Positions 4,027 to 62,878 of a stretch of DNA of 63,423 nt are shown piece after piece. Origin of the DNA: a virus; IMG/VR virus record IMGVR_UViG_3300032665_000026, positions 1 through 63,423 of that record; one strand, 5' to 3'. The notes under the pieces are model-generated. The model saw nothing but the letters and a program-made list of their open reading frames with translations. It did no database searches and was not told the DNA's origin. Made by a program: the position numbers and the translations under genes. Numbering within the stretch: position 1 is the stretch's first letter; every line of letters starts with the position of its first letter.

Positions 4027-4970
4027 TGGCTGGTAACATTTTCCCCGTTAGGGTCCATACTACTTTTGATCAAAAAGTTAGTAACTTTCCCGACAACGTT
4101 TATAATTTCGATGACAACGATAATTTAACAACGTTAATGAAAATTTTATTGGGGAATAGTGGTACGGGCCAATTAAACAATATACAAATTGCTGCTAAAA
4201 TAAGCCAACAAAATATAGAGTTCAATAACCTTGATGACATACTCGGTACCATCCTTGATGTAAAAAGGAATTCAAGCGAAATTTATAGTTTTGCAACCAA
4301 TCCATTCATTGACCAACTTGTAACTGATCAATGGCAAAGTATCATAACAAGTGATGCTTCCTATAGAGAGCGCCTGCTCGGTGCAGCGGAAGCTTTTCAG
4401 ACCGGTGCTACTCTATGGGGTGTTGTTACGCTGTGCGAAGCACTTACCCAAATGAAGTTTTATGTAACTGAGAGTTGGAGATCGCCTGGTCATGGTAGGA
4501 GCTCGATCAATAATGCTCAAGAGATCGTTCTAATACCTTTGATTGGTGGAAGCCTTTGGTCATGGAACCAACAATTAGCTCAAGCAGTCCTTAGCACAGC
4601 ACAAAAATTGATTCCGTGTAACTTTATCATTAGTTTCGGCACACCGATACAAACATTCACTCAAGTTTCAGGCTCATATGTCATAACTACTAATGGGTAC
4701 TCAGAGTATTTCCATTTAGAAACTTATGTCAATGCGAATCAAATCAACCCGCCAGGGAACATCCTTCCTGGAGCTAATAGCAGATACTGGGTCCAAAACA
4801 ATGCGACAACCCTGGCACCAAACTTTGCCCACTTACAGACGCAAGAAACAATAATTGATATGACAGGCAATATTGCTTATTGCAATAGCACCGATACGAC
4901 TGGTTACCCAGCAAATAGTATTGCCAACCTTGGCGTCGAAGTGACTTCTACTATCTATGGGGCACAATAA
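4026..4970 (+). CDS. Baseplate/tail protein in the gpI position
   Basis: This 314-residue protein sits immediately after baseplate J, with start and stop overlapping its neighbours by one base. In P2-like gene order this is the position of tail protein I, but the sequence itself was not recognised. It has an Asn-rich N-terminal third, a central mixed helical segment around YRERLLGAAEAFQTG, and a C-terminal strand-rich region. A virion structural role is inferred from context only. Confidence 0.65.
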   Translation: MAGNIFPVRVHTTFDQKVSNFPDNVYNFDDNDNLTTLMKILLGNSGTGQLNNIQIAAKISQQNIEFNNLDDILGTILDVKRNSSEIYSFATNPFIDQLVTDQWQSIITSDASYRERLLGAAEAFQTGATLWGVVTLCEALTQMKFYVTESWRSPGHGRSSINNAQEIVLIPLIGGSLWSWNQQLAQAVLSTAQKLIPCNFIISFGTPIQTFTQVSGSYVITTNGYSEYFHLETYVNANQINPPGNILPGANSRYWVQNNATTLAPNFAHLQTQETIIDMTGNIAYCNSTDTTGYPANSIANLGVEVTSTIYGAQ

Positions 4971-7900: not shown

Positions 7901-8161
7901 GCGAATGGTATCCAATTGAGAATGACTTCTCTAGACCCAGGAACATTCATTTCAGGCGTCAGTCTTGTTCCTAACTACAAACAGAACCCTTACTACTCAA
8001 ATCTACAGATTGATTACCTAGGTGGTAGTAAAACAAATGAAGTAGAATCACGTACTGCCATAGAGAATAAACCATATTTCCAACTGAATACTGAAGTGCA
8101 TCCTGCTATCTTTGACATCAATAGGATTGCTGGGACAATCATCCCATACTCGATCGATTGA
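4970..8161 (+). CDS. Large tail/baseplate structural protein
   Basis: This 1063-residue protein is rich in Asn, Thr, Ser, Tyr and Gly, has few charged residues, and is predicted to be mostly beta-structure, as expected for baseplate peripheral or fibre-attachment proteins. The region around residues 640-830 consists of Gly/Ser/Thr-rich repeats similar to those inside baseplate J. It is the last gene of the coupled tail block, and its stop overlaps the -35 of the next promoter. No enzymatic motif seen. Confidence 0.65.
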   Translation: MSIIPQNTDPLKDYVTQNIQPPMTLNGLVYNKVYAHTGVVDSLGNTQQTGYSDPNLGITNNSNNISTFEQVLQTSWISDTDFGGPNSNPVVLKYVLSNKITYYNTVQLAVLNVPCFVELLDQNGSALPGTSTFMIVGGSDINTTDDWVSLNYTAPSTLTAAASGSTQASISLRITRNQAVQTYQNQSLPVNTPYSIGVTDFRFGLSVMQESDIPLPVINNTTPLNGIITNPSGLITTQNFFGFVENYQFTNNSVSNIFNNDTAYWKCSPQPVKDSIVYFYAKISDPSPTAINRIYVDPIYSGCKFNVYYTTNSVSGGIDPSQFYWAPIQRDFTLRKGIYEIPTTSCTYLKFEFTKLVPEVYDLPVDSIARTVNIFPPDVEQYYYDLEQSIIDGNNVNYSYTVGNNPTTQTQNSNQLSSSTVFGAATNTVANNNSWPSLAALNTSQLGASTTVGNNTSSTVIDPTKSYKLIDSNGQYNFQSYSEFLDRRFYDTRIHNYNQVTIDQSWHQSYFVGVRYLTTFYEVVYDDMRGTPQNLLSRNGSNTGFASQDINYVYMNTNDTATTPWIQTIDSFSSFNVAGLTTDWKSFLTQNNSINNDITLMNYTNPSVINKNSIVSIVSNFGNDAQIVQVVQNQPGIYGVETPQYNASTNLLSYYDANFTSVSGNTNKDWFGLGSTTVTGTSVSWVNGTTGGTASGLSVSGGSYSVAYNFTIPNVYSTMGTTPWTLALGTPSLGTVGYASYNPTGTGINYYFLATLQASTTTTGTLYTQFINPTTSGVISGTLVSGNTITVTGGVTNVMTVTGTNYVGSTPSNTIQVVISGSSGTPFNIYQAGAFASPTSSWVTTADRSNMRISGVARMFLPQTNQGNYQINLVAYSTSIKSNGVILASKSYLPGAMPVNTWFDVELETFTGSNYQWFSVQVLQLNGIAEPFYLSMLAPFYHPIRYEYRNTINGTWYPITTGINDPEVLISTASGIPANGIQLRMTSLDPGTFISGVSLVPNYKQNPYYSNLQIDYLGGSKTNEVESRTAIENKPYFQLNTEVHPAIFDINRIAGTIIPYSID

Positions 8162-8186
8162 TTTTTTCAATCAGTCATGCTAAGAT
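8158..8186 (+). promoter_or_regulatory. Sigma70-type promoter, extended -10, leaderless
   Basis: TTGATT (8158-8163), a 17-base spacer and TAAGAT (8181-8186), with TG one base upstream of the hexamer (extended -10). The expected start, 6-7 bases after the -10, coincides with the ATG at 8193. No Shine-Dalgarno precedes that ATG, so the helicase mRNA is probably leaderless, a common mode in actinobacteria. Confidence 0.6.
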
Positions 8187-8192
8187 GCTTTT

Positions 8193-10052
8193 ATGCCCAA
8201 AGAGAAGACAATCTATGTTCAGAAGAGCAAACTTTTAAATGGGGTATTGAGGTACTCGACCCTTGATAACAATTTCAATGGTTCATCATTCCTTGATACG
8301 TATGGAACTCTTAAGAACCGAGATAAAATTGCTGAGTTCACAGAGCTAGCAATCAATGGTGGCTATACAATCATCTATGAAGATGACGAAGCCAAGACTT
8401 TGCATGATGAACTTTACGCCTGCAGCGTGGGCAAATACGTTGTTGATAGCCCCTTCTTAAACGATCACAATCTATTCCCATTCCAGCACGTTGGATTGAA
8501 TTATGTGTGGAAGCAAATGCACACAGAGAGCCCTAGGGTCTTAGTCCAATGGGACACTGGTGCTGGGAAAACCTTACTCAGTTGTTTAACAAGCCAGAAG
8601 CTTTTTGATAACAACGATGTTGATCTAGTCCTCGTATTCTCAAAGAAAATCAAGCAATACGACTGGGAACAAGAATTCCGACGCATGACATACTTGTCTG
8701 TAGATAGGGTAAGCGAGAAACTAACCCGAGCAAAAAGGCATAAGTTCTACAAGGAAAATAAAAGCCAAGTCCTTTGTCTTAACTATGAAAAAGTACGAGA
8801 AGGCAACCTTGTCAAGGTTAAGGGCAAGCGCAACCGTGTCCGATCATATGACCGTACAGACTTGATGCAAGTCCTCGAGCTTATCGAAGGAAAGCGCGTG
8901 TTAATCATCATTGATGAGGCGCAGAAGATTAATACAGGATCCTCATTGCTTGGCGAAGGTTTCTATAATGTCATCAATGATCCCAAGAATGATGTGCGTG
9001 TACTAGCATTGACCGCAACCCCATATACGACTAGCCCATTGAATATCCGTAACATTTTTTCTATTGTTGAACCTGGTATTAACGACGTTAGTAACATGCC
9101 ACGTGATGTTTTTAAGCGTTTTTATGGCAAAGAGTTCGGCATGTTCAACAACGGTTATGTCCAAGAACTCTATGTAAAAGAATGGGATAGGACTAAGCTC
9201 CCACTCCTAGGTAAAAAGCATGAGAATTGGACACACATCGCAATGAAGAGTGATCCGACTATCGCTGCACAATTCCCTGAAAGCATGCCTAAGAAAATTA
9301 TTTATGAATTGTCTGACATCGATCGTGCTGTTTACGATTGGGCTGAGGAACGTGCTAGGGAGAAGTATAACCCAGATAACCCAGTGGCAAACTGGTCTTA
9401 TATTGATATGCTTAGAATGATTTGCAATACAACCGAAGGCCTTAAAAAGAGTGAGAGCCGATTCGCCAAGGAGATTGTCGACCAATTCGGAGATGTTTTA
9501 AGCTTAAGCAATAGTGCTAAGTACCAGATCATTGAAAACAATATCGAAGAATATATCGAGAATGGTGAGAAAGTTGTACTGTTCACATTCTGGACCAATG
9601 GTACTTTGTTCCCTTATCTAGAAGCTCTAAAGAAGCGCTTCCCGGATATTCCAGTATTACCTATCTGGGGAGTTGGTATGAGCAGCGATACTGTAACTGA
9701 AAACATTAAAACCTTTAACTCCACTAAAGGGCCTGCTATACTTATTACTTCAGACGTAGGTCAGGAAGGTCTAAACTTATATGCCCCTTACCTTTGGAAC
9801 ATCGAAGTACCGCGCACTTACTCAGACTATAAGCAGCGTGCCAATAGAATCAATCGAGCAGACTCTAAAAGCAAAGGTATTGACCACACTTGGATCTTTC
9901 GAGCGGTGGCTGCGAACACGATTGAAGAACGAGCAGACGCCAAGATTCTACGTAGACGAGATGAAGCAGAAGCAATTCGTGGAGTAATCGACGAGGATGT
10001 AGACTTGTACGATGTGATAGATTTAACACCAAAAGGATTTCTATTCGGATAA
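8193..10052 (+). CDS. SF2 DEAD/DEAH-type helicase
   Basis: This 619-residue protein has a full set of superfamily 2 helicase motifs. They are a Walker A WDTGAGKT at about 120-127, a DEAQ box at 241-244, motif III LTATP near 274, and a C-terminal helicase domain with GQEGLNLY and the arginine-finger motif QRANRINRAD near 550-565. It resembles Snf2/UvsW-like phage helicases used in recombination or replication-fork remodelling. Substrate choice cannot be read from sequence. It is transcribed from its own promoter, apart from the tail genes. Confidence 0.85.
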   Translation: MPKEKTIYVQKSKLLNGVLRYSTLDNNFNGSSFLDTYGTLKNRDKIAEFTELAINGGYTIIYEDDEAKTLHDELYACSVGKYVVDSPFLNDHNLFPFQHVGLNYVWKQMHTESPRVLVQWDTGAGKTLLSCLTSQKLFDNNDVDLVLVFSKKIKQYDWEQEFRRMTYLSVDRVSEKLTRAKRHKFYKENKSQVLCLNYEKVREGNLVKVKGKRNRVRSYDRTDLMQVLELIEGKRVLIIIDEAQKINTGSSLLGEGFYNVINDPKNDVRVLALTATPYTTSPLNIRNIFSIVEPGINDVSNMPRDVFKRFYGKEFGMFNNGYVQELYVKEWDRTKLPLLGKKHENWTHIAMKSDPTIAAQFPESMPKKIIYELSDIDRAVYDWAEERAREKYNPDNPVANWSYIDMLRMICNTTEGLKKSESRFAKEIVDQFGDVLSLSNSAKYQIIENNIEEYIENGEKVVLFTFWTNGTLFPYLEALKKRFPDIPVLPIWGVGMSSDTVTENIKTFNSTKGPAILITSDVGQEGLNLYAPYLWNIEVPRTYSDYKQRANRINRADSKSKGIDHTWIFRAVAANTIEERADAKILRRRDEAEAIRGVIDEDVDLYDVIDLTPKGFLFG

Positions 10053-10066
10053 AAAGGAGGTGACAA

Positions 10067-10087
10067 ATGAACCAACACCAAGAGTAA
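10067..10087 (+). CDS. Six-codon leader ORF upstream of lytic enzyme
   Basis: A very strong Shine-Dalgarno (AAAGGAGG, about 10053-10060) precedes ATG 10067, but this frame stops after six codons. The same frame re-opens at TTG 10112, which has only a weaker AAGGA site. It may be a translated leader controlling the downstream secreted enzyme by re-initiation, or the real start may have been lost through an in-frame TAA. Confidence 0.35.
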   Translation: MNQHQE

Positions 10088-10111
10088 TTATTCCTCAAGG
10101 ATTGGAAAATT

Positions 10112-10459
10112 TTGTTAAAGAAAACAATTATTACATTTGCATTATCATTAAGTTTATTTTTAGTTCCCTACACAGCATCAGCAGCAACAAAGCATCATCA
10201 TGTTGCTAAGATTATTCTGAGCGCAACAACCCTAGCCAAATGGCAGAAGGTTGCTAAGTGCGAAGAAGGAGGGAATTGGGGATATTTTAGTTATTGGTAC
10301 CCAGATGCATTAGGTATCGATAGACCCAACTGGATTCAGTTCGGGGGAAGTGTTGTAAAACCAAGTAGTAGAGCAACCCAAATAACCGTAGGGACAAAAT
10401 TCCTAAAGGCATATACTATGAGTATGCCTGATCAACAGGGCTACTGTGCCCCATGGTAG
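10112..10459 (+). CDS. Secreted Rpf-like/transglycosylase-like cell-wall protein
   Basis: This 115-residue protein starts at TTG with AAGGA ten bases upstream. Residues 1-24 are a classical signal peptide (Lys-Lys, hydrophobic core, TASAA cleavage region). The phrase WQKVAKCEEGGNWG near residue 45 matches the core of resuscitation-promoting-factor / transglycosylase-like domains of actinobacteria, including the likely catalytic Glu and the first Cys of the conserved disulfide (partner near the C-terminus in YCAPW). It probably cleaves peptidoglycan glycan strands outside the membrane, for lysis or host stimulation. It is close to a bare domain in size. Confidence 0.75.
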   Translation: MLKKTIITFALSLSLFLVPYTASAATKHHHVAKIILSATTLAKWQKVAKCEEGGNWGYFSYWYPDALGIDRPNWIQFGGSVVKPSSRATQITVGTKFLKAYTMSMPDQQGYCAPW

Positions 10460-10474
10460 AAAGATAAAGATAAA

Positions 10475-10690
10475 ATGACAATTAAAAAATATGCTCAGAT
10501 TCACGTTGATGTTATGGAACTGCTCCTTAGCGGAGAGATGCATAGCACACTGGTCGGCAAGCAGATTACACTCGGTGGTTCCAAGGAAAGTACCGTTAAG
10601 CAAGCCGACGAATTTGCACAATACATTGTAGATCTGCTCAAGAAGGCGGAACAATTTAGAAAGGACAATGTAAAGAGCAGCAATTCGTAG
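10475..10690 (+). CDS. Hypothetical protein
   Basis: A 71-residue soluble protein, mixed helix, ending in a Lys-rich helix (LLKKAEQFRKD). ATG 10475 lies 16 bases after the lytic-enzyme stop with an AAAGATAAAG purine stretch upstream. No known family recognised. Confidence 0.6.
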   Translation: MTIKKYAQIHVDVMELLLSGEMHSTLVGKQITLGGSKESTVKQADEFAQYIVDLLKKAEQFRKDNVKSSNS

Positions 10691-10700
10691 CTTATCTAGT

Positions 10701-10787
10701 GAGGGCGTTTCTCGCCTCTCCTGAAGGGCCTGGTCTTCCTCGGGGGTTGCAGTCGGTGTTCATACCTTGACTCCCCCCGAGGCCCTT
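10701..10787 (+). ncRNA. Structured intergenic RNA, two hairpins
   Basis: A short hairpin at 10701-10718 (GAGgGCG/CGCCTC) precedes a long composite hairpin at 10724-10787. The composite pairs AAGGG with CCCTT, CCTCGGGGG with CCCCCGAGG, AGTC with GACT, and GGT with ACC around a six-base apical loop. It is far more GC-rich than the flanks. No U-tract follows, so it is not a simple rho-independent terminator. It lies between the small gene and whiB and could be a small RNA, attenuator or processing signal. Confidence 0.5.
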
Positions 10788-10813
10788 ACAGCTACTGCTT
10801 CCACATAAATATT

Positions 10814-11182
10814 ATGGAACTAAATACACTTGACCTGAAATGGCAAAAAGATGCTGCTTGCGCATCTATGTCATCAGAAGATTATGATGCTTTCTATCCA
10901 AAACATGGCAAAGTGTTTTTGAAAGAAACCCTAGCTATCTGCAATAGCTGCCCAGTTAGTTCATCTTGTCTAGATTATTCTCTTAAGTATGAAGAATATG
11001 GCTATTGGGCAGGGACCGGCACTACTGAACGTAGAAAGATGCGCAAAGAACTTGGCATCGAATTGGTTACATTGAACTCAGAGTTCATTAGAGACCAAGT
11101 AATTGAAACAATCAAAGAAACCTACCATCCAGTTAAGATTCAAGGGCGTGGTAGAAAGACTACAGTTAAGGATGAAGTATGA
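10814..11182 (+). CDS. WhiB-family iron-sulfur transcriptional regulator
   Basis: This 122-residue protein carries the four cysteines of WhiB-like proteins in order: C17 (in DAACAS), C43 and C46 (CNSC), and C52 (SSSC). The signature GYWAGTGTTERR turn follows, with a basic C-terminal tail (GRGRKTT). The family binds a 4Fe-4S cluster and modulates sigma-factor-dependent transcription, and it is restricted to actinobacteria and their phages. Encoded copies usually reprogram or mimic host WhiB. It overlaps the next gene by four bases. Confidence 0.88.
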   Translation: MELNTLDLKWQKDAACASMSSEDYDAFYPKHGKVFLKETLAICNSCPVSSSCLDYSLKYEEYGYWAGTGTTERRKMRKELGIELVTLNSEFIRDQVIETIKETYHPVKIQGRGRKTTVKDEV

Positions 11183-11871
11183 AAATTGGTTTAATCGTTC
11201 CAGTTCTAAATATTTTTGAGCAGGCAATCGATCTTGTCTATAGTGCGGAGAGTGAACACGATCTAAAGGTCTTTATTCAGCCACAATATCGAGTCCAGGT
11301 GCCACTCGCAGCAGCATGGAACCGTGGCATCCGACAAGCTATTGCAGCAGACTGCGATGTCATTATTGTAAGCAACGATGATGCAATGTTTGGTCCAAAA
11401 ACCATTGACCGTCTTGCGGAGAATGTACTTGATATGGATGACAAGTATGTAATGGCATTCCCAGTGGACGTGCTCGACGGTCTAACCGATCCCAGTGATA
11501 TCCTGTTCGGTGATGGATGGGACCTAGACATTACTAACCCAGAAGATCAATCGTTCTCCTGCTTTGCTATCAAGCCAGACTTCTTCGACAAGTGTGGGAC
11601 TTTTGATGAGAACTTTGACCCAGCTTGGTGGGAAGATGCAGACATGAAATACCGTATGCACTTGCTTGGGTACAAGACTTTACAAACAGTTGTTCCATAC
11701 GTGCACTTGCGTCATCAAACTACGCAGAAGTTAAACCTCCCTCTCAACTCTATGAAGAGTGGAGAATACTTCGTAAAAAAGTGGGGTAGTGCTAAGAAAG
11801 ACTTGCATGAGACTTACGTTAACCCGTATAATGATAATAGTCTAAGTCCAAAAGAGTGGAGACCGTTGTGA
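11179..11871 (+). CDS. GT2-like glycosyltransferase
   Basis: This 230-residue protein has a GT-A-like fold: an N-terminal strand KIGLIVPVLN, a mid-protein VIIVSNDDAMFG segment with the acidic motif that binds nucleotide-sugar and metal, and a later WWEDADMKYR containing the conserved ED pair of family 2 enzymes. It is the first of three overlapping glycosyltransferase genes. The target (virion protein, modified DNA base or host wall) cannot be deduced. Confidence 0.75.
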   Translation: MKIGLIVPVLNIFEQAIDLVYSAESEHDLKVFIQPQYRVQVPLAAAWNRGIRQAIAADCDVIIVSNDDAMFGPKTIDRLAENVLDMDDKYVMAFPVDVLDGLTDPSDILFGDGWDLDITNPEDQSFSCFAIKPDFFDKCGTFDENFDPAWWEDADMKYRMHLLGYKTLQTVVPYVHLRHQTTQKLNLPLNSMKSGEYFVKKWGSAKKDLHETYVNPYNDNSLSPKEWRPL

Positions 11872-14125: not shown

Positions 14126-14198
14126 GCTCCTATAGCTCAGTTGGAAGAGCAGGGGACTTTTAATCCCAAGGTCGTTGGTTCGAGCCCAACTGGGAGCA
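14126..14198 (+). tRNA. tRNA-Lys (TTT)
   Basis: Cloverleaf with a 7-bp acceptor (one G-U), D-stem AGCTC/GAGC type, anticodon loop ACTTTTAAT with anticodon TTT, and T-arm with a TTCGAGC loop. The 3' CCA is not encoded (A discriminator followed by CT). First of a tRNA set lying among small genes. Confidence 0.9.
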
Positions 14199-14263
14199 CT
14201 CCGAACGAAGCAAATACCGTAGATGCAGCAAGCTCCTGGGAATGAGATTAAACTTCCCAACAA

Positions 14264-14338
14264 CGGGTAGTAGCGCAGCTTGGTCAGCGCATCTGGTTTG
14301 GGTCCAGAGGGTCGGGGGTTCGAATCCCTCCTACCCGA
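14264..14338 (+). tRNA. tRNA-Pro (TGG)
   Basis: Acceptor CGGGTAG/CTACCCG pairs fully. The anticodon stem TCTGG/CCAGA encloses loop TTTGGGT with anticodon TGG, and the T-loop is TTCGAAT. The CCA tail is not encoded. Confidence 0.92.
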
Positions 14339-14345
14339 CGCAGTA

Positions 14346-14416
14346 GCCCTTGTAGTACAGTGGTAGTACACTAGACTTGTAATCTTGTGACGGGAGTTCG
14401 ATTCTCTCCGGGGGCA
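14346..14416 (+). tRNA. tRNA-Thr (TGT)
   Basis: Acceptor GCCCTTG/CGGGGGC (with G-U pairs), D-stem GTAC/GTAC, anticodon loop CTTGTAA with anticodon TGT, T-loop TTCGATT. One mismatch in the anticodon stem. CCA not encoded. Confidence 0.88.
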
Positions 14417-14439
14417 CGTAGTATGATAAGGTTGTTATC

Positions 14440-14448
14440 TGGTATGAT
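14440..14448 (+). promoter_or_regulatory. Extended -10 promoter before tRNA-Leu
   Basis: TGGTATGAT (TG-N-hexamer) lies about 14 bases before the tRNA-Leu 5' end. A second TATGAT lies at 14422-14427. There is no good -35. The same nonamer appears at 16955. It could give separate transcription of the tRNA and following genes. Confidence 0.4.
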
Positions 14449-14461
14449 GGTTTTTGTATAA

Positions 14462-14535
14462 GCCCTGATATCCCAATTGGCAGAGGAAGGGCGCTTAAAA
14501 CGCCCCAAGTGTGGGTTCGAGTCCCACTCAGGGTA
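14462..14535 (+). tRNA. tRNA-Leu-like (TAA), short variable arm
   Basis: The anticodon stem GGGCG/CGCCC encloses loop CTTAAAA, giving anticodon TAA (reads UUA). Acceptor pairs 2-7 are Watson-Crick, with G-U as pair 1. The T-arm is GTGGG/CCCAC with loop TTCGAGT. The variable region has only about five bases, unlike the long arm of normal bacterial Leu tRNAs, so the amino-acid identity is uncertain. Confidence 0.8.
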
Positions 14536-14548
14536 CTAAGGAGATAGT

Positions 14549-14782
14549 ATGGCAATGACATTAAAACAAGCAGCGACGATTATGCTAGAATTGTGTAAGA
14601 TTCCTGCTGAACCGAAGCTCGTTGCAGCATTTAACAACTATGATGTTAATAGTATGTGGATCAAAAGTGTGCTTAAGGGAGCTGCTCCGGCAGCAAGCAC
14701 GTTGAGTAATCCTTATTATGAGGAAGCATTAAACGTTTTACGTGCAAATGGAATTGATATTAATATCTTTGATACCAACTAG
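14549..14782 (+). CDS. Hypothetical protein
   Basis: A 77-residue helical protein, ATG 14549 preceded by AAGGAG. It contains Ala-rich helices and ends in a DINIF segment. Sits between tRNA-Leu and a membrane protein. No family recognised. Confidence 0.65.
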   Translation: MAMTLKQAATIMLELCKIPAEPKLVAAFNNYDVNSMWIKSVLKGAAPAASTLSNPYYEEALNVLRANGIDINIFDTN

Positions 14783-14796
14783 TAGAAAGAAAAAGT

Positions 14797-15093
14797 ATGC
14801 AGAGTAAGAATAAGTTTTTTATCGCAGTACCAGTGATTGTAATTATAATCTTATTATCTATTATTGGAGCTGTTCATCTTATCCATCCACAATGGATTGG
14901 TGAGCAAACTGATAAAGCTGGATACTTCCAGAAAGCAGTGGGACTGATCACGGATGCACCACATGCTACCGCTGAACTGTTCTATTCAACCCTAGAAGAC
15001 TTGGTGATCTTGTTTGTGGGCATCTCTTGGGGTAAGCGAATCTGGCACAAGGAACACAAGAAGTTTGACGAAGAACACGGAGTGAAGCACTAA
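14797..15093 (+). CDS. Small membrane protein
   Basis: This 98-residue protein has one strong membrane segment (residues about 7-30, VPVIVIIILLSIIGAVHLI) after a short basic N-terminus. A second weaker hydrophobic stretch near residue 72 (EDLVILFVGISWG) and a charged C-terminal tail rich in Lys/His/Glu follow. A holin-like or superinfection-related role is possible but unsupported. Its stop overlaps the next start. Confidence 0.65.
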   Translation: MQSKNKFFIAVPVIVIIILLSIIGAVHLIHPQWIGEQTDKAGYFQKAVGLITDAPHATAELFYSTLEDLVILFVGISWGKRIWHKEHKKFDEEHGVKH

Positions 15094-15392
15094 TGCCAAC
15101 TACTTGGGTAAAAATTGAACCACGTTTGTGCCAATGTGGTTGTGGGACTATTATTACAAAAAAGGAGAAAAGATCTCAAGGTCGTTTTTGCCAGGGGCAC
15201 ACATTCAAATCAGCAATAAATCGTGTACCTAACCCTTCTGCTCTGACTGAAGAGGATTATGCACGAATCCGTAAGATTCCAGCATGGAGAGCTGTTTATG
15301 AATCAGTAGAAGGCATTCTAGGAGAGTCTTTTAATGGCTATGAAGTGGTTAACTATGGTACACTAGAAGAGTTGGACGATCTTATTTATTAG
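15093..15392 (+). CDS. Zinc-ribbon-like hypothetical protein
   Basis: A 99-residue protein whose N-terminal part, CQCGCGTII...GRFCQGH, carries four cysteines and a His spaced like a small zinc-binding motif seen in HNH-associated and phage DNA-binding proteins. The C-terminal half is acidic. Function unknown. Confidence 0.6.
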   Translation: MPTTWVKIEPRLCQCGCGTIITKKEKRSQGRFCQGHTFKSAINRVPNPSALTEEDYARIRKIPAWRAVYESVEGILGESFNGYEVVNYGTLEELDDLIY

Positions 15393-15399
15393 ATCACAT

Positions 15400-15474
15400 G
15401 CCTCTATAGCACAAGGGATAGTGCAAAGGAGTTCTAACCCTGGGATCTCAGTTCGAGTCTGAGTGGAGGCACCA
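15400..15474 (+). tRNA. tRNA-Arg (TCT)
   Basis: Acceptor GCCTCTA/TGGAGGC, D-stem GCAC/GTGC, anticodon loop GTTCTAA with anticodon TCT, T-arm CTCAG/CTGAG. The anticodon stem has mismatches at both ends. Unlike the others, the 3' CCA is encoded (15472-15474). Confidence 0.85.
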
Positions 15475-15475
15475 A

Positions 15476-15547
15476 GGATGATTAGCTCAGCGGTAGAGCA
15501 ACTCGTTTACACCGAGAAGGTCGGGAGTTCAATCCTCTCATCATCCA
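15476..15547 (+). tRNA. tRNA-Val (TAC)
   Basis: Acceptor GGATGAT/ATCATCC pairs fully. D-stem GCTC/GAGC, anticodon stem ACTCG/CGAGA around loop TTTACAC (anticodon TAC), T-loop TTCAATC. It begins two bases after the encoded CCA of tRNA-Arg, so the two are co-transcribed. Confidence 0.9.
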
Positions 15548-16996: not shown

Positions 16997-17686
16997 ATGA
17001 AGCAAAACTACATTATGCCCCAAAAGAAAGTACTCGCTACTACTCCCCTTCAGGAGGTTACGGAACCTACCTATGGGGAATCCAGCAAGGCTCAATCCCG
17101 AGCTGACGTACGTCGAACTAGTGCCAACGAAGAAGGTCTACTGATAGCAGTAGATGCCATCAATGGCTTGAATGAATTGATGTATTCTTTTGATGCAAAG
17201 GTTGCAAAGCCATTGTCACCAGTAGAGATCGATTCCTTGGCTGCTGAACTCGTTGCTGTGCGTAGGGTGAAGGATATAGTAGAAGGCCGTGAGGCATCTC
17301 TGAAGGCTTATGCGACTGAAGTAATCAATCTCAACATTGCTTCTATTGGCAACGATCCTTCAGAGACGAGTGGTTACCTTGTAAGCCCAGAGAATGGTAT
17401 CAAGCTTTCGAAGGAAGTCACGGGTGGTAAACTCAATATCGATATCGATTTGCTTGAGCAAGTTCTAGATACCGATCAATTCAAATCAGTAGTAAACATT
17501 GTAGAGACTCAGACTATTACTACAAAGCCTGATGGAAGCAAGCTAATTGAGGCAACGAAGGCATACCAGTTGAACGAAGAATGCCTCGAGAAGGAACTCA
17601 AAATAGGTAACATCGGCATGGAACAGGTTGTAAAGGCGACCATGCCTGGGAAGATTCGCTCAGCTTTTTATGTCCGAAGCCTATAA
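16997..17686 (+). CDS. Hypothetical protein of replication block
   Basis: A 229-residue protein. The first 40 residues are disordered and basic, followed by helices (VDAINGLNELMYSFDAKVAK) and a C-terminal Lys/Thr-rich part. It resembles no family I can name. It is the first gene after a strong promoter and overlaps the HTH gene by 17 bases, suggesting an early or replication-associated role. Confidence 0.65.
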   Translation: MKQNYIMPQKKVLATTPLQEVTEPTYGESSKAQSRADVRRTSANEEGLLIAVDAINGLNELMYSFDAKVAKPLSPVEIDSLAAELVAVRRVKDIVEGREASLKAYATEVINLNIASIGNDPSETSGYLVSPENGIKLSKEVTGGKLNIDIDLLEQVLDTDQFKSVVNIVETQTITTKPDGSKLIEATKAYQLNEECLEKELKIGNIGMEQVVKATMPGKIRSAFYVRSL

Positions 17687-27485: not shown

Positions 27486-28889
27486 ATGACAGATAAATTA
27501 GTCGCTTTACACGTTCATTCAGAGCACAGTTGCCTCGATGGTCTCGCAACAATCGATGATATTGTTAACCGTGTAGTAGACCTTGGGCAGAGTGCCGTAG
27601 CTATTACCGATCACGGTGAATGCAGTGGCCACCTACAGCTCCAGCATGCAGCTGATAAGGCTGGTATCAAGCCCATCTATGGCATGGAAGGTTACTTCAC
27701 CGAGAATCGCCATGAGAAAGCTGGCAAGAAGGGCGAGAACTACGACCACATGACAATCCTGGCAATGAATTCCAAAGGCCTAGAGAACTTGTGGTCACTT
27801 TCCAGCCTTGCTTATATCGAAGGTAGCTACTACGGCAACCCACGCTTCGACTGGGAACTACTGGAAAAGTACAATGAAGGGCTTATCATCACTGGTGGTT
27901 GCATGGGTGGTTGCATCGGTAAGCACCTTAAAGATGAAGGTAATTATTCAAAGGCTGTAGAGCGTATCGGTCGATACCAAGCGATCTTTGGTGAACGATT
28001 CCACCTAGAGCTGCACACGTATCTTGACCCAGAGAGCAACGAATGGAACTTGCGCGTTGCAGAAGCTGCTCTTGACTACAGCGTTCCTCTGATTACCGTA
28101 GCAGACTCTCACTACGCTAAGCCCGACCAGTGGTATGCGCATGAACTCATGACAGCTATCCAGATGGGCAAGACCATCAATGACCCATCACGGTTCAGCT
28201 ATGGTTCTAATCAGTTGTGCCTCTTCTCAGAGGAAGAGACTCGTAGCCGTTTAAGCTATCTACCCGATTCGATTGTTGACGGAGCTATCAAACGTACTGG
28301 TGAGATTGCTGATATGTGCGATGCTCGGGTACCAGGCTCACGTAAGATGCCTGTATTCTACAATACTGCCAAGATGGACGAACGTAAGATGCGTGAGACT
28401 GCCGAAGAAGGCTTCGCCCGTAAGATCGTTGGGCATACCGCTGAAGATATGATTCAGGTATATCGAGACCGCCTAGAATACGAGATCGAAATCGTTACCA
28501 CTCGTGGATTCCCAGGCTACTTCTTGACCGTACAAGACCTCATCAATTGGAGTAAGAGTGAAGGATTCCTTGTAGGACCTAGCCGTGGATGTTTTTTACC
28601 TGGATCTTATGTAGGACAGTGTAATGGAGAACATAAGTTAATAGAGTTAATAGAGAAAGGTGACAAGGTAACAAATTACTTTGAAGGTGAAAGTACGGTT
28701 ATTAATACATTTGTTTATGAAATCGATGAAGATATAATTTCATTAGAATTCGAAGACGGTGCGATAATAAAATGTACGCAAGATCATAAGTTCTTGACTC
28801 AAAGAGGTTGGGTGCCTGCCATCGAATTAACGCTAGATGACGAGGTAATAGAACATTATGCAAGTTTACAAGACGACGAACAAAATTAA
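27486..28889 (+). CDS. dnaE: DNA polymerase III alpha, N-terminal part with split-intein N half
   Basis: This 467-residue product has two parts. Residues 1-368 are the N-extein: a PHP domain (LHVHSEHSCLDG, ITDHGECSG, GMEGYF) and the start of the polymerase palm up to GPSRG. Residues 369-467 are an intein N half beginning with Cys. The open frame then stops, and the rest of the polymerase is encoded separately after a homing endonuclease gene. It must be joined by protein trans-splicing to the product starting at 29768. The spliced polymerase would be about 1097 residues. Confidence 0.9.
   Translation: MTDKLVALHVHSEHSCLDGLATIDDIVNRVVDLGQSAVAITDHGECSGHLQLQHAADKAGIKPIYGMEGYFTENRHEKAGKKGENYDHMTILAMNSKGLENLWSLSSLAYIEGSYYGNPRFDWELLEKYNEGLIITGGCMGGCIGKHLKDEGNYSKAVERIGRYQAIFGERFHLELHTYLDPESNEWNLRVAEAALDYSVPLITVADSHYAKPDQWYAHELMTAIQMGKTINDPSRFSYGSNQLCLFSEEETRSRLSYLPDSIVDGAIKRTGEIADMCDARVPGSRKMPVFYNTAKMDERKMRETAEEGFARKIVGHTAEDMIQVYRDRLEYEIEIVTTRGFPGYFLTVQDLINWSKSEGFLVGPSRGCFLPGSYVGQCNGEHKLIELIEKGDKVTNYFEGESTVINTFVYEIDEDIISLEFEDGAIIKCTQDHKFLTQRGWVPAIELTLDDEVIEHYASLQDDEQN
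28590..28886 (+). other. Split intein, N-terminal half (99 residues)
   Basis: It begins with Cys1 (CFLPGSYV, block A), has block B with the TxxH motif in KCTQDHKFLT, and ends after 99 residues, close to the N-half length of known DnaE split inteins. It is inserted at the polymerase active-site loop between ...GPSRG and SAGGS.... The coding DNA becomes more AT-rich right at the junction. Confidence 0.88.
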
Positions 28890-29793
28890 CGGGAAATTTT
28901 ATATAGGGCAAGATACACACGATGATCCAAACTATTATGGGTCAGGGGTTGCCATCGTGAATGCTATAAAATTTTATGGAAAACTTAATTTTTTTAAAGA
29001 AGTACTCCAAGTTTGTAATACTATAGATGAACTCAATCAAGCAGAGATAGAATGGATTAGCAAACTAGATGCTAACAACAGGAAAATAGCTTACAATATA
29101 CAACCAGGTGGTAACCAAAAAGATTCGTATACAAATAACCCTAATAGAGAAGAGATTCTTAGAAAGTTAATAGAATCTAATGCAAGAGTTAATAATGATC
29201 CCGTGCTATCTAAAGCCAAACAAGATAAAACCACCGAAACAAAGATGAAGAATGGTACTCATCCTTCTTTGCCTGGAATGAAAAAAAAGTATAGTGAAGC
29301 TAATAAGGGTAGAGTATTTACAGAAGATACTTGTAAGAAAATTAGTGAAGCTAATAAAGGCAAAGCAAAGACTGAAGAACATAAAAAAAAGTTATCTTTA
29401 GCTAAAAAGGGGAAGCCTTCATCCAACAAAGGTAAGAAAATGAGTAAAGAAGGCATAGATAATATCAAATCGTCATGGACTGACAATCGTAGAGTTAAAC
29501 ATTCACAAATATTTTCTGGTAGGATTGTTTCGGAAGAAACTAAGAAAAAAATATCTGAATCTAAAATTGGGAAACCTGGCACACCGCATACGGAGGATTC
29601 TAAGAAGAAAATCTCTGAAGCCAATAAAGGGAAAATATTCTCAGAAGAATCACGAAAGAAAATGTCAGAAAGCAGTAGGGGACAAACTGCATGGAATAAA
29701 GGTATCCCATGCACAGAAGAAACAAAAGAAAAGATTCGTCAAAGTATTTTGAGTAAGAGAGAGAAAAATGAAGCTAAAATCAAAGACGATTGA
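28858..29793 (+). CDS. GIY-YIG homing endonuclease with NUMOD repeats
   Basis: 311 residues. The N-terminus VYKTTNKINGKFYIG is a GIY-YIG nuclease signature. It is followed by YYGSG, a catalytic Glu in QAEIEWISKLDA, and YNIQPGG with the Asn of the family. The rest is a run of NUMOD3-like repeats (SEANKGKxxTEE...) and Lys-rich linkers that bind DNA. The gene overlaps the intein-N ORF by 32 bases and the intein-C ORF by 26. It likely cuts intein-less dnaE alleles, spreading the whole insert. Strongly AT-rich. Confidence 0.88.
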   Translation: MQVYKTTNKINGKFYIGQDTHDDPNYYGSGVAIVNAIKFYGKLNFFKEVLQVCNTIDELNQAEIEWISKLDANNRKIAYNIQPGGNQKDSYTNNPNREEILRKLIESNARVNNDPVLSKAKQDKTTETKMKNGTHPSLPGMKKKYSEANKGRVFTEDTCKKISEANKGKAKTEEHKKKLSLAKKGKPSSNKGKKMSKEGIDNIKSSWTDNRRVKHSQIFSGRIVSEETKKKISESKIGKPGTPHTEDSKKKISEANKGKIFSEESRKKMSESSRGQTAWNKGIPCTEETKEKIRQSILSKREKNEAKIKDD

Positions 29794-29875
29794 GCACTAT
29801 GTAGGCCCAGTCTATGATATTGGTGTATCGTCACAAGATCATAGTTATATTATTGGGAATAAAGTTGTCCACAAC
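29768..29875 (+). other. Split intein, C-terminal half (36 residues)
   Basis: It contains block F VYDIGVSSQDHSYII and block G NKVVHN with penultimate His and terminal Asn, followed by Ser as the +1 extein nucleophile. At 36 residues it equals the length of classic DnaE split-intein C halves. AGAGAGAG lies before its ATG, so it is translated independently. Confidence 0.88.
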
Positions 29876-32065
29876 TCAGCTGGTGGTTCATTGCTGTCAT
29901 ACGTAATGGATATTACTGAGGTAGACCCTATCCCATCCGGCCTTATCTTCGAACGGTTCCTTAACCCTGAGCGCGTAAGTATGCCAGATATTGACATCGA
30001 CATGCCAAAGCTAGAACGTGGTATGGTACGCGTTTACCTCGAAAAGAAGTATGGCCGTTATAACATTGCTTCGATTGGCACATCGAACACCTTAGGGCCA
30101 AAGCAGTCAATCAAGGATGTTTGCCGTGGTTTAGGTATCAACAAGGAAGACACTCAAGAGATGTGTGACATCATTGAGGATGACTGGAACCTTAAGAACC
30201 GTGGTGCCAGCTGGGCAGATGTTATGCATCAGTATTCTAAGGATTATTCGCCGTGGATGGTAAAGTATCCTAAGCTATTCGATAATCTTCCTGAGTTTGT
30301 CAATCACATTCGTCACACCAGTGCTCACGCTGCAGGTATCGTAATCAGCAAAGATACACTCATTGGTGCTATGCCATTGCGCTACAGTCCTAGCCAAGAT
30401 GATATCCGCACACAATTCGATATGAACGGTGTAGACGAGCTTGGGTTCGTCAAGATCGACTTGCTCGGACTCCGCACACTTAGCACACTTATGGCTGCAT
30501 TAGATCTAATCAAGGAGAGCAACGATGGCACCCTACCTTTCCGTCATTTCTATGAATGGAACTACGACTGGGACACCTATTACAACGATAGTGCTGTCTG
30601 GGACTCCATCTGCACCGGTAACAATATTGGGTTATTCCAAATCGAGACAGGTCCCCTTAGAAGTCTGGTTAAGCGATTCCAACCAAGAAGCATAGAAGAC
30701 CTCTGCACCATGATTGCCATCTACCGCCCAGGTATTACTCGGTCAGTAGACTCTGAGACTGGACTTAATCTTCTCGAGATGTACATGCAGAAGCGTGAGG
30801 GCAAGCGTAACGTAACGTATAAGCACCCTAAGCTACGCGACATCCTCGGTGTATCCTACGGTAGTTTCGTTTATCAGGAACAGATCATGGAAACATGTGT
30901 AGCGCTAGCTGGCTATACCATTGTTGAGACTGACCGTGTTCGTAAGGCAGTGGCCAAGTCTAACTATGAGGACATGAAGGACGAAGCTGAGATCTTTGTT
31001 CAGAAGTGTATCGACAATGGAATCGATAAAAAGACTGCAGAATCTATTTTTGATGATATGCGTGCCTTTGGTATGTATGGTTTCAACAAAAGTCACGGTT
31101 ATGGTTATTCAATGCTCTCCTACTGGACTGCATGGGTGAAGCATCATTACCCGCAGGAGTTCATGACTGCATTGTTCCGTACTAATCCCAACGATAGTGT
31201 TATTTACCAGCGTGAATCTCGCCGTATGGGTATTGAGGTCCTTGGTCCAGACATTAACGAGAGCGGTGACAACTTCACACTCACTAGCGATGGGAATATC
31301 CGTTATGGTCTAAGCAAGGTTAAGCACGTTGCAAACGCTGCAGCTGAGATCAATAAGTTTGGCCCATTCGCTAGTATGGAAGACTTCTTGAACCGTGTGC
31401 CGACAAAGCGCATTAACAAGCGTGTTATTGTATCTATGATTAAATGTGGTGTCTTCGATAGTTTATGCGGTGACCCAAAAACTGCTTTGTACGAGTATTA
31501 CAAGACCCGTAAGGAATATAAAAAATATGTTGATAATAATTGCGATGCTGTTTGTATTTATTGTGCTGGACGTGACAATTATTTCGATTGTCTTTCAATC
31601 AACGTTGAAGCGATTGATGCGCGTGGTGCTAACGAACAGGACCTTTTGGGTACTATGGTTAGTATTGATCCTCTTGCTGATTACATCGAAGTAATTGAAG
31701 AAGAACACAATTTCCCCGGAGAGAAGCACATGTTCCAAGGTGAGAAAGCAATGCTCGGTGGTATCGTAACCATGATCAAACCATTGGTAACAAAGAAGGG
31801 CAAGCACCCAGGATCCGAAATGTGCCAACTATGGGTGGAACTACCGATCTCTAGCCTTGAAGACGATATGCTTGAAGAAGAAGAAGAATTATCGCAGAGA
31901 GATGAGACAGTACAGATCGTCGCATTCCCAGAAGCTTATAAAAGGGTGAAGAATGAGCTTGAAGTTGGTACACCTGTTCTGGTCCAAGTTGAGAAAATGC
32001 GTGATGGCTTAAGCTTAAGAAGTGTATTCCGACTTGACAAACTTAAAACCGATGCAGTAATATAA
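29768..32065 (+). CDS. dnaE: DNA polymerase III alpha, C-terminal part with split-intein C half
   Basis: This is a 765-residue product. Residues 1-36 are the intein C half. From Ser37 the C-extein begins with SAGGSLLSYV, the polymerase active-site loop, then MPDIDIDMP with two catalytic aspartates, and VKIDLLGLRTLS with the third. Fingers and thumb segments, a helix-hairpin-helix-like part and an OB-fold region follow. The coding is continuous to the stop. Function depends on trans-splicing with the 27486 product. Confidence 0.9.
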   Translation: MKLKSKTIEHYVGPVYDIGVSSQDHSYIIGNKVVHNSAGGSLLSYVMDITEVDPIPSGLIFERFLNPERVSMPDIDIDMPKLERGMVRVYLEKKYGRYNIASIGTSNTLGPKQSIKDVCRGLGINKEDTQEMCDIIEDDWNLKNRGASWADVMHQYSKDYSPWMVKYPKLFDNLPEFVNHIRHTSAHAAGIVISKDTLIGAMPLRYSPSQDDIRTQFDMNGVDELGFVKIDLLGLRTLSTLMAALDLIKESNDGTLPFRHFYEWNYDWDTYYNDSAVWDSICTGNNIGLFQIETGPLRSLVKRFQPRSIEDLCTMIAIYRPGITRSVDSETGLNLLEMYMQKREGKRNVTYKHPKLRDILGVSYGSFVYQEQIMETCVALAGYTIVETDRVRKAVAKSNYEDMKDEAEIFVQKCIDNGIDKKTAESIFDDMRAFGMYGFNKSHGYGYSMLSYWTAWVKHHYPQEFMTALFRTNPNDSVIYQRESRRMGIEVLGPDINESGDNFTLTSDGNIRYGLSKVKHVANAAAEINKFGPFASMEDFLNRVPTKRINKRVIVSMIKCGVFDSLCGDPKTALYEYYKTRKEYKKYVDNNCDAVCIYCAGRDNYFDCLSINVEAIDARGANEQDLLGTMVSIDPLADYIEVIEEEHNFPGEKHMFQGEKAMLGGIVTMIKPLVTKKGKHPGSEMCQLWVELPISSLEDDMLEEEEELSQRDETVQIVAFPEAYKRVKNELEVGTPVLVQVEKMRDGLSLRSVFRLDKLKTDAVI

Positions 32066-51632: not shown

Positions 51633-52328
51633 CTATCCTTCTATGACAGTCTGATTTAAGTTGGCGTTCTTGCCACTTAGTATACCAGCATCGTACCCGT
51701 TAATAGAAGTTAACTTATCTGATTGTCTGGATTTCTTTTTACCAACACTTTGAAAATAATCTTCGATAGCATGCTGCTTATCTCGGACTACTAGCTCCAC
51801 TGATGTACCAATAATTTCATTATCCTTAATGACTTTGGCCTTAGATTCTTTGATACGTTCACTAATAGTAACAGCATACCCTGCAAAGAAACTCTTTGTC
51901 CAAGCTTTAACTGGCAAAGTATCATTATAAATAGCCTTAGCTTTTTCTAACTTAATTTTCATCTCGCTAACCATATGGGGACAAAGGATCTCGTAAAGAG
52001 TTAAGCAAAAATCAATATCGCTTTGATAACCATAGATCATGCAGTAACCATCTCCTCGCAATACCTTGCAAAAGTTATGTTTAGCAATGGAATTAAGTAG
52101 CACACTCTTATCAATAAGATATGGTTTATTTACTTCAATCCTTGATGAAGTAATGCCACCAGAACCCACATGGTTATTAAGCTGAGCTTCCTCAATCTGG
52201 TATTGCGTAATGAGCTCCTGAGCAAGTGATTGAGCTGCTGCTACTTCTCCAGGGTGATTACTACTCTCCGCTAAGCGTAAGATTTTTTGTACCCTAGAAA
52301 TAATATCAGTAAGTTTGCTTACCATCAT
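51633..52328 (-). CDS. DUF2786-like protein
   Basis: 231 residues. The N-terminal RVQKILRLAESSNHPGEVAAAQSLAQELI...YQIEEAQ matches the DUF2786 pattern (a short helical region seen in phage and bacterial proteins of unknown function). The remainder is helical and basic. Its leader contains hammerhead-like element 1 and an AAGGAAGGA site. Confidence 0.7.
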   Translation of the reverse strand: MMVSKLTDIISRVQKILRLAESSNHPGEVAAAQSLAQELITQYQIEEAQLNNHVGSGGITSSRIEVNKPYLIDKSVLLNSIAKHNFCKVLRGDGYCMIYGYQSDIDFCLTLYEILCPHMVSEMKIKLEKAKAIYNDTLPVKAWTKSFFAGYAVTISERIKESKAKVIKDNEIIGTSVELVVRDKQHAIEDYFQSVGKKKSRQSDKLTSINGYDAGILSGKNANLNQTVIEG

Positions 52329-52349
52329 TGTTCCTTCCTTGTTATAGTC

Positions 52350-52413
52350 TAGCCATCATCGGCGGAGAGACGACTAATCCTCTCCGTACACCTCCCGGTG
52401 TTTCGGCAATTCT
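52350..52413 (-). ncRNA. Hammerhead-like ribozyme candidate 1 (variant core)
   Basis: On the minus strand, directly after the stop of the 52412-52657 gene: GAAA, stem III ACACC/GGTGT with GGGA tetraloop, UA cleavage position, and stem I CGGAGAG/CTCTCCG. Then comes a CCGATGAT core where canonical would be CUGAUGA, and a possible stem II GCC/GGC. Topology is type II (stem II open). The U4 position is C and there is one extra base, so activity is uncertain. Confidence 0.5.
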
Positions 52414-53021: not shown

Positions 53022-53144
53022 TTATAGGAAGTCTACTAGATCTCCATCAAAGCCGTAGCTTTCAAGCTCACGATACATAGAAACAGGGCTAATTTTCCCA
53101 TTGTACATGTCGCTTACTAGTTCTTCTACCTGTTCATCATCCAT
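53022..53144 (-). CDS. Small acidic protein
   Basis: 40 residues (MDDEQVEELVSDMYNG...), ATG at 53144 behind AAAGGA. Helical, acidic. Sits just downstream of the best hammerhead candidate. Confidence 0.6.
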   Translation of the reverse strand: MDDEQVEELVSDMYNGKISPVSMYRELESYGFDGDLVDFL

Positions 53145-53161
53145 GATGTATCCTTTATTTA

Positions 53162-53227
53162 ACCTATCTCATCAGTCCATAGGCGGTCAACCCTATGAAT
53201 ACGCCTCCCGGCGTTTCGATTCATTAA
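53162..53227 (-). ncRNA. Hammerhead ribozyme candidate 2 (canonical core)
   Basis: Minus strand, starting at the stop codon of the upstream gene. It reads GAAA, stem III ACGCC/GGCGT with a GGGA (GNRA) tetraloop, GUA cleavage triplet, stem I TTCATAGG/CCTATGGA (8 bp, one G-U), and the complete core CUGAUGA. Stem II is GAT/ATC, extended by TTAA/TTAA across a 3x3 internal loop. All universally conserved hammerhead positions are present in type II topology. Cleavage would separate the two flanking cistrons. Confidence 0.78.
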
Positions 53228-53377
53228 TTAATACTCAGCACAGCCACAGTCATAGCCATTGGCAAAATTGCTGCAGCAGTAACTTACTTGCACTACTTGT
53301 CCAGAGGCATTGCGCATATAACCATCTGGTAATGTATCATCATATACATCTGAATCAAATTGGATTGTGTAAGTCAT
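53228..53377 (-). CDS. Small Cys-containing protein
   Basis: 49 residues: MTYTIQFDSDVYDD..., ending YCCSNFANGYDCGCAEY with five cysteines, likely metal-binding or disulfide-containing. GGAG precedes ATG 53377. A longer opposite-strand frame here is a shadow. Confidence 0.6.
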   Translation of the reverse strand: MTYTIQFDSDVYDDTLPDGYMRNASGQVVQVSYCCSNFANGYDCGCAEY

Positions 53378-56920: not shown

Positions 56921-57634
56921 CTACTTAGGGAAAACAATTTCAATTTGCTTACCATTAATAGTAATGAACTGCGGTGCAGCAGGTACATCTGGTTCTACTG
57001 GTGCTACTGATACAGGTTCTAACACTGGATTAATTGCTTCAATAACGTCTCCGATACTATCAAACATCATACTAAAGCCTGGAATATCTGCTTTGTCTCC
57101 ACCGAAATCCCATGCGCTTGTGTCAATGGTGAATGAGGTATCAATCATTGGTTCGGGTTCTACTTCTGCTACAACAGTAGTTGGTGCATCTTCAGTAACA
57201 CTGGAGGTAGTTTCAACCGTTGTAGGAATAGTAGAATATACCATACCTAGATCTGACTTCTCTTTCCAAACACCATCGATTGAGATGCAAGGATTCAAGA
57301 CAATGCCAGTCTTACCAACCTCGTACGATAGACCAAGCATACGGTAGAGAAAGTACTTACGCGCAATATCTCGATTAGTCTCAGTCTGTGCCATTTGTAG
57401 CATCGTAGCGATATTTGCCTTAGCATCTTGGTGAGTTGCATAGAACATACGCCCAATGATAGTACGTGCTCGTCCAGTTTCTTCATCGTTCTTAGAACAA
57501 CGAATATCTACTCGGGAGAAACTTGTTGGTGTCTCCTTAGTAACAGTGAACGCTAGGTCAACTATGTCGCGAGTACGACTAGAATTCCAGCACTTACCAT
57601 CTGGTTTTGGTACCCAGATAAGTTCGTTAGTCAT
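56921..57634 (-). CDS. Hypothetical protein
   Basis: 237 residues. The first 120 residues are alpha/beta with a Cys pair; the C-terminal half is a disordered Val/Thr/Glu/Pro-rich tail ending FITINGKQIEIVFPK. Possibly a DNA-binding or host-takeover protein. No family recognised. Confidence 0.65.
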   Translation of the reverse strand: MTNELIWVPKPDGKCWNSSRTRDIVDLAFTVTKETPTSFSRVDIRCSKNDEETGRARTIIGRMFYATHQDAKANIATMLQMAQTETNRDIARKYFLYRMLGLSYEVGKTGIVLNPCISIDGVWKEKSDLGMVYSTIPTTVETTSSVTEDAPTTVVAEVEPEPMIDTSFTIDTSAWDFGGDKADIPGFSMMFDSIGDVIEAINPVLEPVSVAPVEPDVPAAPQFITINGKQIEIVFPK

Positions 57635-62808: not shown

Positions 62809-62878
62809 CACTGCAGATGGGAATCGAACCCACAATCTTCTAGCTGAACTAGACGCTCTACCATTGAGCCACTGCAGT
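62809..62878 (-). tRNA. tRNA with UCA anticodon (opal-reading; Trp-like)
   Basis: Minus strand cloverleaf, 70 bases. Acceptor ACTGCAG/CTGCAGT pairs fully, D-stem GCTC/GAGC, T-arm GTGGG/CCCAT with TTCGATT loop. The anticodon loop GTTCAGC gives anticodon TCA, which pairs with UGA. A1-U72 and discriminator G73 match bacterial tRNA-Trp identity. The anticodon stem is only 4 bp and the loop could fold as 5 bases. CCA not encoded. Confidence 0.6.

Follow-up and report, generated by a model that had tools for sequence, protein, structure and literature searches.

Type II hammerhead ribozymes, their pseudoknot and their occurrence in clusters flanking phage genes were described in 2011 (Perreault et al., PMC3088659). 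In the same work, clustered phage-type hammerheads cleaved in vitro, one triple array also cleaved in E. coli, and cleavage depended on the pseudoknot; for the prophage clusters it was proposed that a long transcript is cut into operon- or gene-length mRNAs (PMC3088659). The members collected in Rfam family RF02276 have an open stem II, closed stems I and III, a CUGANGA/GAAA core and an NUH cleavage site (PMC3088659), all of which recur in the element treated here, HH1. It lies in a 63,423-base IMG/VR virus record, the whole of which was analysed and is called the window below, and it is one of three hammerheads (HH1, HH2 and HH3) that the covariance model R2 finds there, all on the minus strand (Table 1). 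HH1 is an additional member of the published class, which itself is not new; the window alone adds one further example.

Anatomy of HH1 and its placement between two genes

Read directly on the minus strand, positions 53220-53159 hold every defining residue of a type II hammerhead. G12-A13-A14 is the GAA at 53217-53215, stem III is closed by A53214-U53201, and the NUH triplet is GUA with A17 at 53200. Stem I is 8 bp long including one U-G pair; behind the core, GAU (53168-53166) pairs with AUC to form stem II, whose closing pair G10.1-C11.1 is present as G53168-C53218, and a single A leads into the tail GGUUAA. Stems I and III are closed by loops and stem II is open, both from direct reading and from compensatory changes in homologues. 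The original prediction had described the GAAA, the 5-bp stem III with its GGGA loop, the GUA, the 8-bp stem I, the exact core CUGAUGA and the GAU/AUC stem II, and had held that all conserved hammerhead residues are in place; direct reading bears out each of these.

A further proposal, that stem II is extended by pairing of TTAA with TTAA, is allowed by the letters but was rejected. Among 143 distinct hammerheads, the 5′ flank pairs with the 3′ tail no better than background (z 1.4). Loop I, by contrast, pairs with the tail far better than with re-dealt tails (z 15.9). Judged by these statistics, the outermost element of HH1 is the pseudoknot between loop I and the 3′ tail and not a longer stem II; UUGACC/GGUUAA gives it six pairs, and a pseudoknot of this kind is a common, non-universal feature of the type II class. 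Its counterparts elsewhere are built from other letters, namely UUGACC/GGUCAA in the relative L012, AUUAGCC/GGCUAAU in L011 and L012, and UUGAUU/AAUCAA in L008.

HH1 occupies, as had been predicted, a spacer between two phage cistrons; the genes there run closely packed along the minus strand. The end of its tail is only 2 bases from AAAGGA, the ribosome-binding site of the downstream 40-aa ORF. The same arrangement is widespread: when a simple rule is used to call ORFs, a stop codon stands at most 40 bases upstream of 127 of the 143 copies, against 14 for the antisense strand and 19 for random places; for a start codon with a ribosome-binding site at most 40 bases downstream, the corresponding figures are 84, 11 and 11. 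To judge from these positions, a stop before and a start after the ribozyme is the geometry expected for a cut between cistrons.

Table 1. Positions of HH1 and its parts, of the neighbouring genes and of the other hammerheads (window coordinates, except for phage R4)
Feature	Positions	Strand	Evidence or remark
HH1, type II hammerhead ribozyme, canonical core, with pseudoknot	53159..53220	-	direct reading and covariance models
HH1 stem II 3′ strand AUC; C11.1 at 53218, partner GAU 53168-53166	53218..53220	-	direct reading; columns covary
HH1 stem III ACGCC-GGGA-GGCGU, 5 bp, GNRA loop, closing pair A15.1-U16.1	53201..53214	-	direct reading, covariation
HH1 predicted cleavage site, A17 (53200) / U1.1 (53199)	53199..53200	-	inferred from hammerhead numbering
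HH1 stem I UUCAUAGG/CCUAUGGA, loop I GUUGACCG	53176..53199	-	direct reading, covariation
HH1 core C3-A9 CUGAUGA	53169..53175	-	direct reading
HH1 3′ tail GGUUAA, pseudoknot partner of loop I UUGACC (53190-53185)	53159..53164	-	covariation, pairing statistics
Upstream ORF, 49 aa; stop codon ends 7 bases ahead of HH1 stem II	53228..53377	-	
Downstream ORF, 40 aa, acidic; AAAGGA at 53156-53151	53022..53144	-	no Pfam match
HH2, core CCGAUGA plus U after A9 (U4C, U9a)	52343..52408	-	R2, 33.0 bits
DUF2786/DUF7168 gene, 231 aa, directly downstream of HH2	51633..52328	-	
HH3, core CUGA-A-UGA (A6a), without G10.1-C11.1 pair, 6-bp pseudoknot UUGACC/GGUCAA	57661..57723	-	R2, 33.9 bits
237-aa gene downstream of HH3	56921..57634	-	no Pfam match
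Streptomyces phage R4 (L168), nine hammerheads, unannotated	3593-11278	-	small-gene arm

Model scores and covariation

A loose pattern of the hammerhead core is expected 0.01 times per window, and a strict structural descriptor with the stems required matched once in the window and never in 400 Markov-resampled windows (25 Mb). Scores from covariance models are divided. RF02276 (Hammerhead_II) aligns to HH1 from end to end, but at 29.3 bits the element stays below the curated gathering score of 37 bits, so that on Rfam's own model the expected match fails; it succeeds on the independent model R2, and homologues of the same clade (49.0, 37.4 and 37.3 bits) do exceed the Rfam cut-off. R2 was built from alignment A5, whose 18 type II hammerheads were taken from other IMG/VR contigs, none of them of the window's clade, and gives HH1 57.4 bits (E 1.6e-14; its calibration was short, which makes the E-value rough and leaves the bit score unaffected). 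A second model, R1, made from five clade homologues with the window excluded, gives 42.6 bits; its match at window positions 17278-17333 (plus strand) has no hammerhead core and was taken as chance. HH1 is invisible to routine annotation because a search with RF02276 over its own 63,423-base record yields no match at E 1; likewise, an Rfam scan of the whole window at the gathering score returned tRNAs and no hammerhead, and the spacer matched no cultured phage by blastn. The tRNA genes number seven, six clustered at 14126-15547 (plus strand) and one at 62809-62878 (minus strand).

Covariation was assessed in two alignments. In A5, two-sided changes are seen in 14 of the 21 pairs, the pseudoknot included, amounting to 78 cells where shuffles give 22.6, and the signal is lost when the partners are slid against each other. 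In the clade alignment A6, for which one G-C pair in stem I of the window copy was omitted to fit the columns, 13 of 21 pairs show such changes.

The thought that HH1 is a chance resemblance, or an intrinsic terminator taken for a ribozyme, could draw on the RF02276 score under the cut-off, on the GC-rich hairpin of stem III, which is like a terminator stem, and on the ordinary minimum free energy (MFE) z-score of the region (-1.28). The MFE fold is, however, uninformative for HH1 because it cannot model the pseudoknot, and the GC stem is not directly followed by a U-run, nor is any minus-strand terminator called near 53200; the last two points led to rejection of the terminator reading. Together with the empty 25 Mb of resampled sequence, the compensatory changes and the homologues already refute a chance origin, whose probability we put close to nil. 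On this body of sequence evidence HH1 is confirmed, and it was correctly named a type II hammerhead.

Relatives, arrays and variation of the core

The window most likely derives from a phage of Actinobacteria, because the cultured phages with the most similar terminases are the Rhodococcus phages Finch and E3, the Gordonia phage Stormageddon and mycobacterial phages (best 42-44% identity), and because a WhiB gene lies nearby. On its plus strand (27486-32065) it also has a DNA polymerase III alpha-like frame with an apparent intein-like split and a homing-endonuclease-like ORF inside (28858-29793), all named by eye. Seventeen relatives were collected via the terminase, most of which carry one to five hammerheads, always on the small-gene strand: five in L008-L010, four in L011, L012 and L017, two in L007, and at least one in L001, L002, L004, L005 and L016. 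L013 has a weak R1 match (14.2 bits) and no R2 match; none was found in L003, L006, L014 and L015, which are fragments, so that absence there is weak evidence, and R2 finds none in the cultured E3, Finch and Stormageddon. The two copies of L007 (14828-14889 and 15410-15471, minus strand), 582 bases apart and near the contig end, are identical, possibly by tandem duplication or as an assembly effect.

The junctions at HH2 and HH3 are shared with relatives. The junction of the DUF2786 gene carries a hammerhead in seven of them (L001, L002, L004, L007, L008, L011 and L012); a scan of viral contigs with the DUF2786 protein as query found no relatives, whereas the loci fetched by terminase do contain DUF2786 homologues. 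HH3 has its counterpart ahead of the orthologous gene in L005, L011 and L012, and the form of HH3 with stem II unpaired is common to L005 and L016. HH1 itself is not conserved in place: L001 and L002, the closest relatives by terminase (90% identity), have no hammerhead of its sequence, and its two flanking ORFs have no counterpart there or in the other relatives. Over 73 bases, HH1 shares 85% identity with the L012 copy at 17277, which precedes the orthologue of the gene behind HH3; copies thus persist at junctions and also appear at new ones, either through movement of the ribozymes or through exchange of the genes around them.

The core varies in a few ways. U4C is found in HH2, at 13480 in L011 and at 19507 in L008. 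An extra U after A9 (U9a) is found in HH2, at 13526 in L012 and in L004, where it joins a core reading UUGACGA; HH1 is without it. Copies at 14563 and 14822 of L011 and L012, respectively, read UUGAUAA, that is C3U with G8A, four copies of L011 and L012 have GAUAA in place of GAAA (U13a), a pattern scanned in its U form and present in four stretches of the viral contigs, and HH3 has an extra A after A6. C3U with G8A, A6a (with low activity), U13a and a mismatch at 10.1-11.1 were all reported by Perreault et al. There, U3-A8 counts as a compensatory variant that retains activity, and the U13a insertion occurs naturally and should be tolerated (PMC3088659); a reading of the UUGAUAA and GAUAA copies as dead was dropped on this account. 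Exact patterns searched in viral contigs gave 106 insertions after A9 (100 U, 4 C and 2 A; at least three pairs were required in stem II, and a G insertion is indistinguishable) and, among distinct sequences, 18 with C and none with A or G at position 4; both scans were limited to one stem III shape and copies from related phages are non-independent, which makes these figures counts and not rates. As far as sequence counts can tell, the biases towards U and C argue that U9a and U4C are kept and are not decay. To our knowledge the text of the published work carries no report of U4C in nature. In the hammerhead of the viroid CChMVd, de la Pena and Flores (2001, J Biol Chem 276:34586, cited in PMC6155905) are said to have found an extra nucleotide, A, between A9 and G10.1, and an extra U there reportedly raises the rate 3-4 fold; the insertion of the phage type II hammerheads is, by contrast, commonly U, as in HH2.

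These altered copies bear on the possibility that the fold is real but the family mainly a structured spacer, either a hairpin-capped mRNA boundary or a pseudoknot controlling translation near the ribosome-binding site, and that any cleavage is weak or incidental. Retention of the stems and the pseudoknot in HH2, HH3 and the UUGACGA copy of L004 would suit such a spacer, as would the closeness of the HH1 tail to the ribosome-binding site. The core is, however, far stricter than a spacer needs, since across IMG/VR substitutions of G5 occur in one stretch and of A6 in none, against at least 120 stretches with the canonical core; moreover, the common changes are narrow (U9a, U4C, and C3U with G8A) and several are compatible with activity. 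We therefore regard a mere spacer as improbable and retain the reading as a ribozyme, of which some copies with altered cores, such as HH2 and HH3, may be weak or dead.

Whereas the canonical pattern has at least 120 viral stretches, a near-identical form of it (gap limit 34 vs 40) was matched by only 44 stretches in a bacterial and archaeal genome collection of 257 billion bases, which ties the type II hammerhead strongly to phages. The 77-kb viral contig of L050 holds an array of 13 R2 matches, and the contig of L103 one of 10. Above the Rfam cut-off there are nine matches in Streptomyces phage R4 and seven in Hank144, all on the small-gene strand; six of the nine R4 copies have the extra U after A9. 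Three annotated genes of R4 (gp60.1, gp67.1 and gp75.1) sit on ribozymes and are probably spurious. Several start codons also seem to have been annotated too far upstream: those of gp72, gp76 and gp81 fall ahead of a ribozyme, and for gp77 and gp79 the start is within one. In the literature searched, which covered few subscription journals, no paper names the arrays of R4, Hank144, L050 or L103. One more copy is unsurprising to specialists; the useful by-products are that a cultivable phage carries an array and that the core varies within narrow limits.

Proposed role and comparison with known systems

With the anatomy, covariation, stop/start placement and homology of HH1 observed, we infer its transcription, its cleavage and any effects on mRNA stability or translation by analogy. 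Positions 53220-53159 very probably form an active, pseudoknot-stabilised type II hammerhead, predicted to cut a minus-strand transcript between cistrons; the likeliest role is the cutting of polycistronic phage mRNA proposed by Perreault et al. The minus-strand gene run would be transcribed, and the RNA would fold once the tail GGUUAA emerges and loop I can pair with it, a pairing that would keep stems I and II next to each other. By analogy with the family, the RNA should then cut itself between A53200 and U53199. The hairpin of stem III and a 2′,3′-cyclic phosphate would then form the end of the upstream message. The downstream message would start with a 5′-OH and the stem I hairpin, and the 40-aa gene's ribosome-binding site and start codon would follow within 60 bases; such a cut would, as originally suggested, define the 5′ end of this gene's RNA. 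Together, HH1, HH2 and HH3 would split a single long transcript of the phage into shorter mRNAs with hairpin ends. A17 in place of the usual C17, together with the U-G pair in stem I, may slow cleavage at HH1.

Two window copies only 0.8 kb apart enclose three small genes, and cleavage at both would give one fragment a 2′,3′-cyclic phosphate and a 5′-OH end; pairs of hammerheads might accordingly release gene-length RNAs that a host ligase of the RtcB type closes into circular mRNAs. Splicing or circle formation was raised as an option by Perreault et al., who looked and found no such products (PMC3088659), and the sequences here give no sign of ligase partners or of selection on spacing; we consider circles very unlikely and prefer division into linear mRNAs. 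A broader idea, which we offer tentatively and with some doubt, is that the arrays are a standing mRNA-processing layer in a number of phage groups that are not related to one another, among them the R4-like Streptomyces phages and the clade of the window, and that the core variants U9a and U4C would have been selected for this; copies persist at junctions while the core shifts between canonical and variant states, as if the cleavage rate were tuned for each junction. R4, whose host is S. coelicolor A3(2), is cultivable and has nine hammerheads, so that the processing idea is directly testable there.

The window set resembles the RF02276 class in its pseudoknot between loop I and the 3′ tail, its place in the spacers between phage genes, its several copies per genome and the changing identity of the flanking genes (PMC3088659). 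HH1 departs from the family in its score, its 8-bp stem I with a U-G pair, its A17 and its AU-rich tail, and its siblings in core changes, which are U4C with U9a in HH2, A6a with loss of the 10.1-11.1 pair in HH3, and U13a in L011 and L012. The pseudoknot hammerhead of crystal structure 8YDC (PMC11300833) has the same core, and there, as in HH1, a pseudoknot of loop and tail does the job of the contacts between stems I and II; it is, however, a ribozyme designed with two strands, whose pseudoknot takes the place of the whole of stem II, whereas HH1 retains a stem II of 3 bp. HH3, unlike HH1, may be without stem II. The prophage clusters of Agrobacterium tumefaciens, Azorhizobium caulinodans and Clostridium scindens likewise have several copies on one strand around small phage genes; they were tested in vitro, that of A. 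tumefaciens also in E. coli (PMC3088659). The arrays described here reach nine copies in R4 and 13 in one viral contig.
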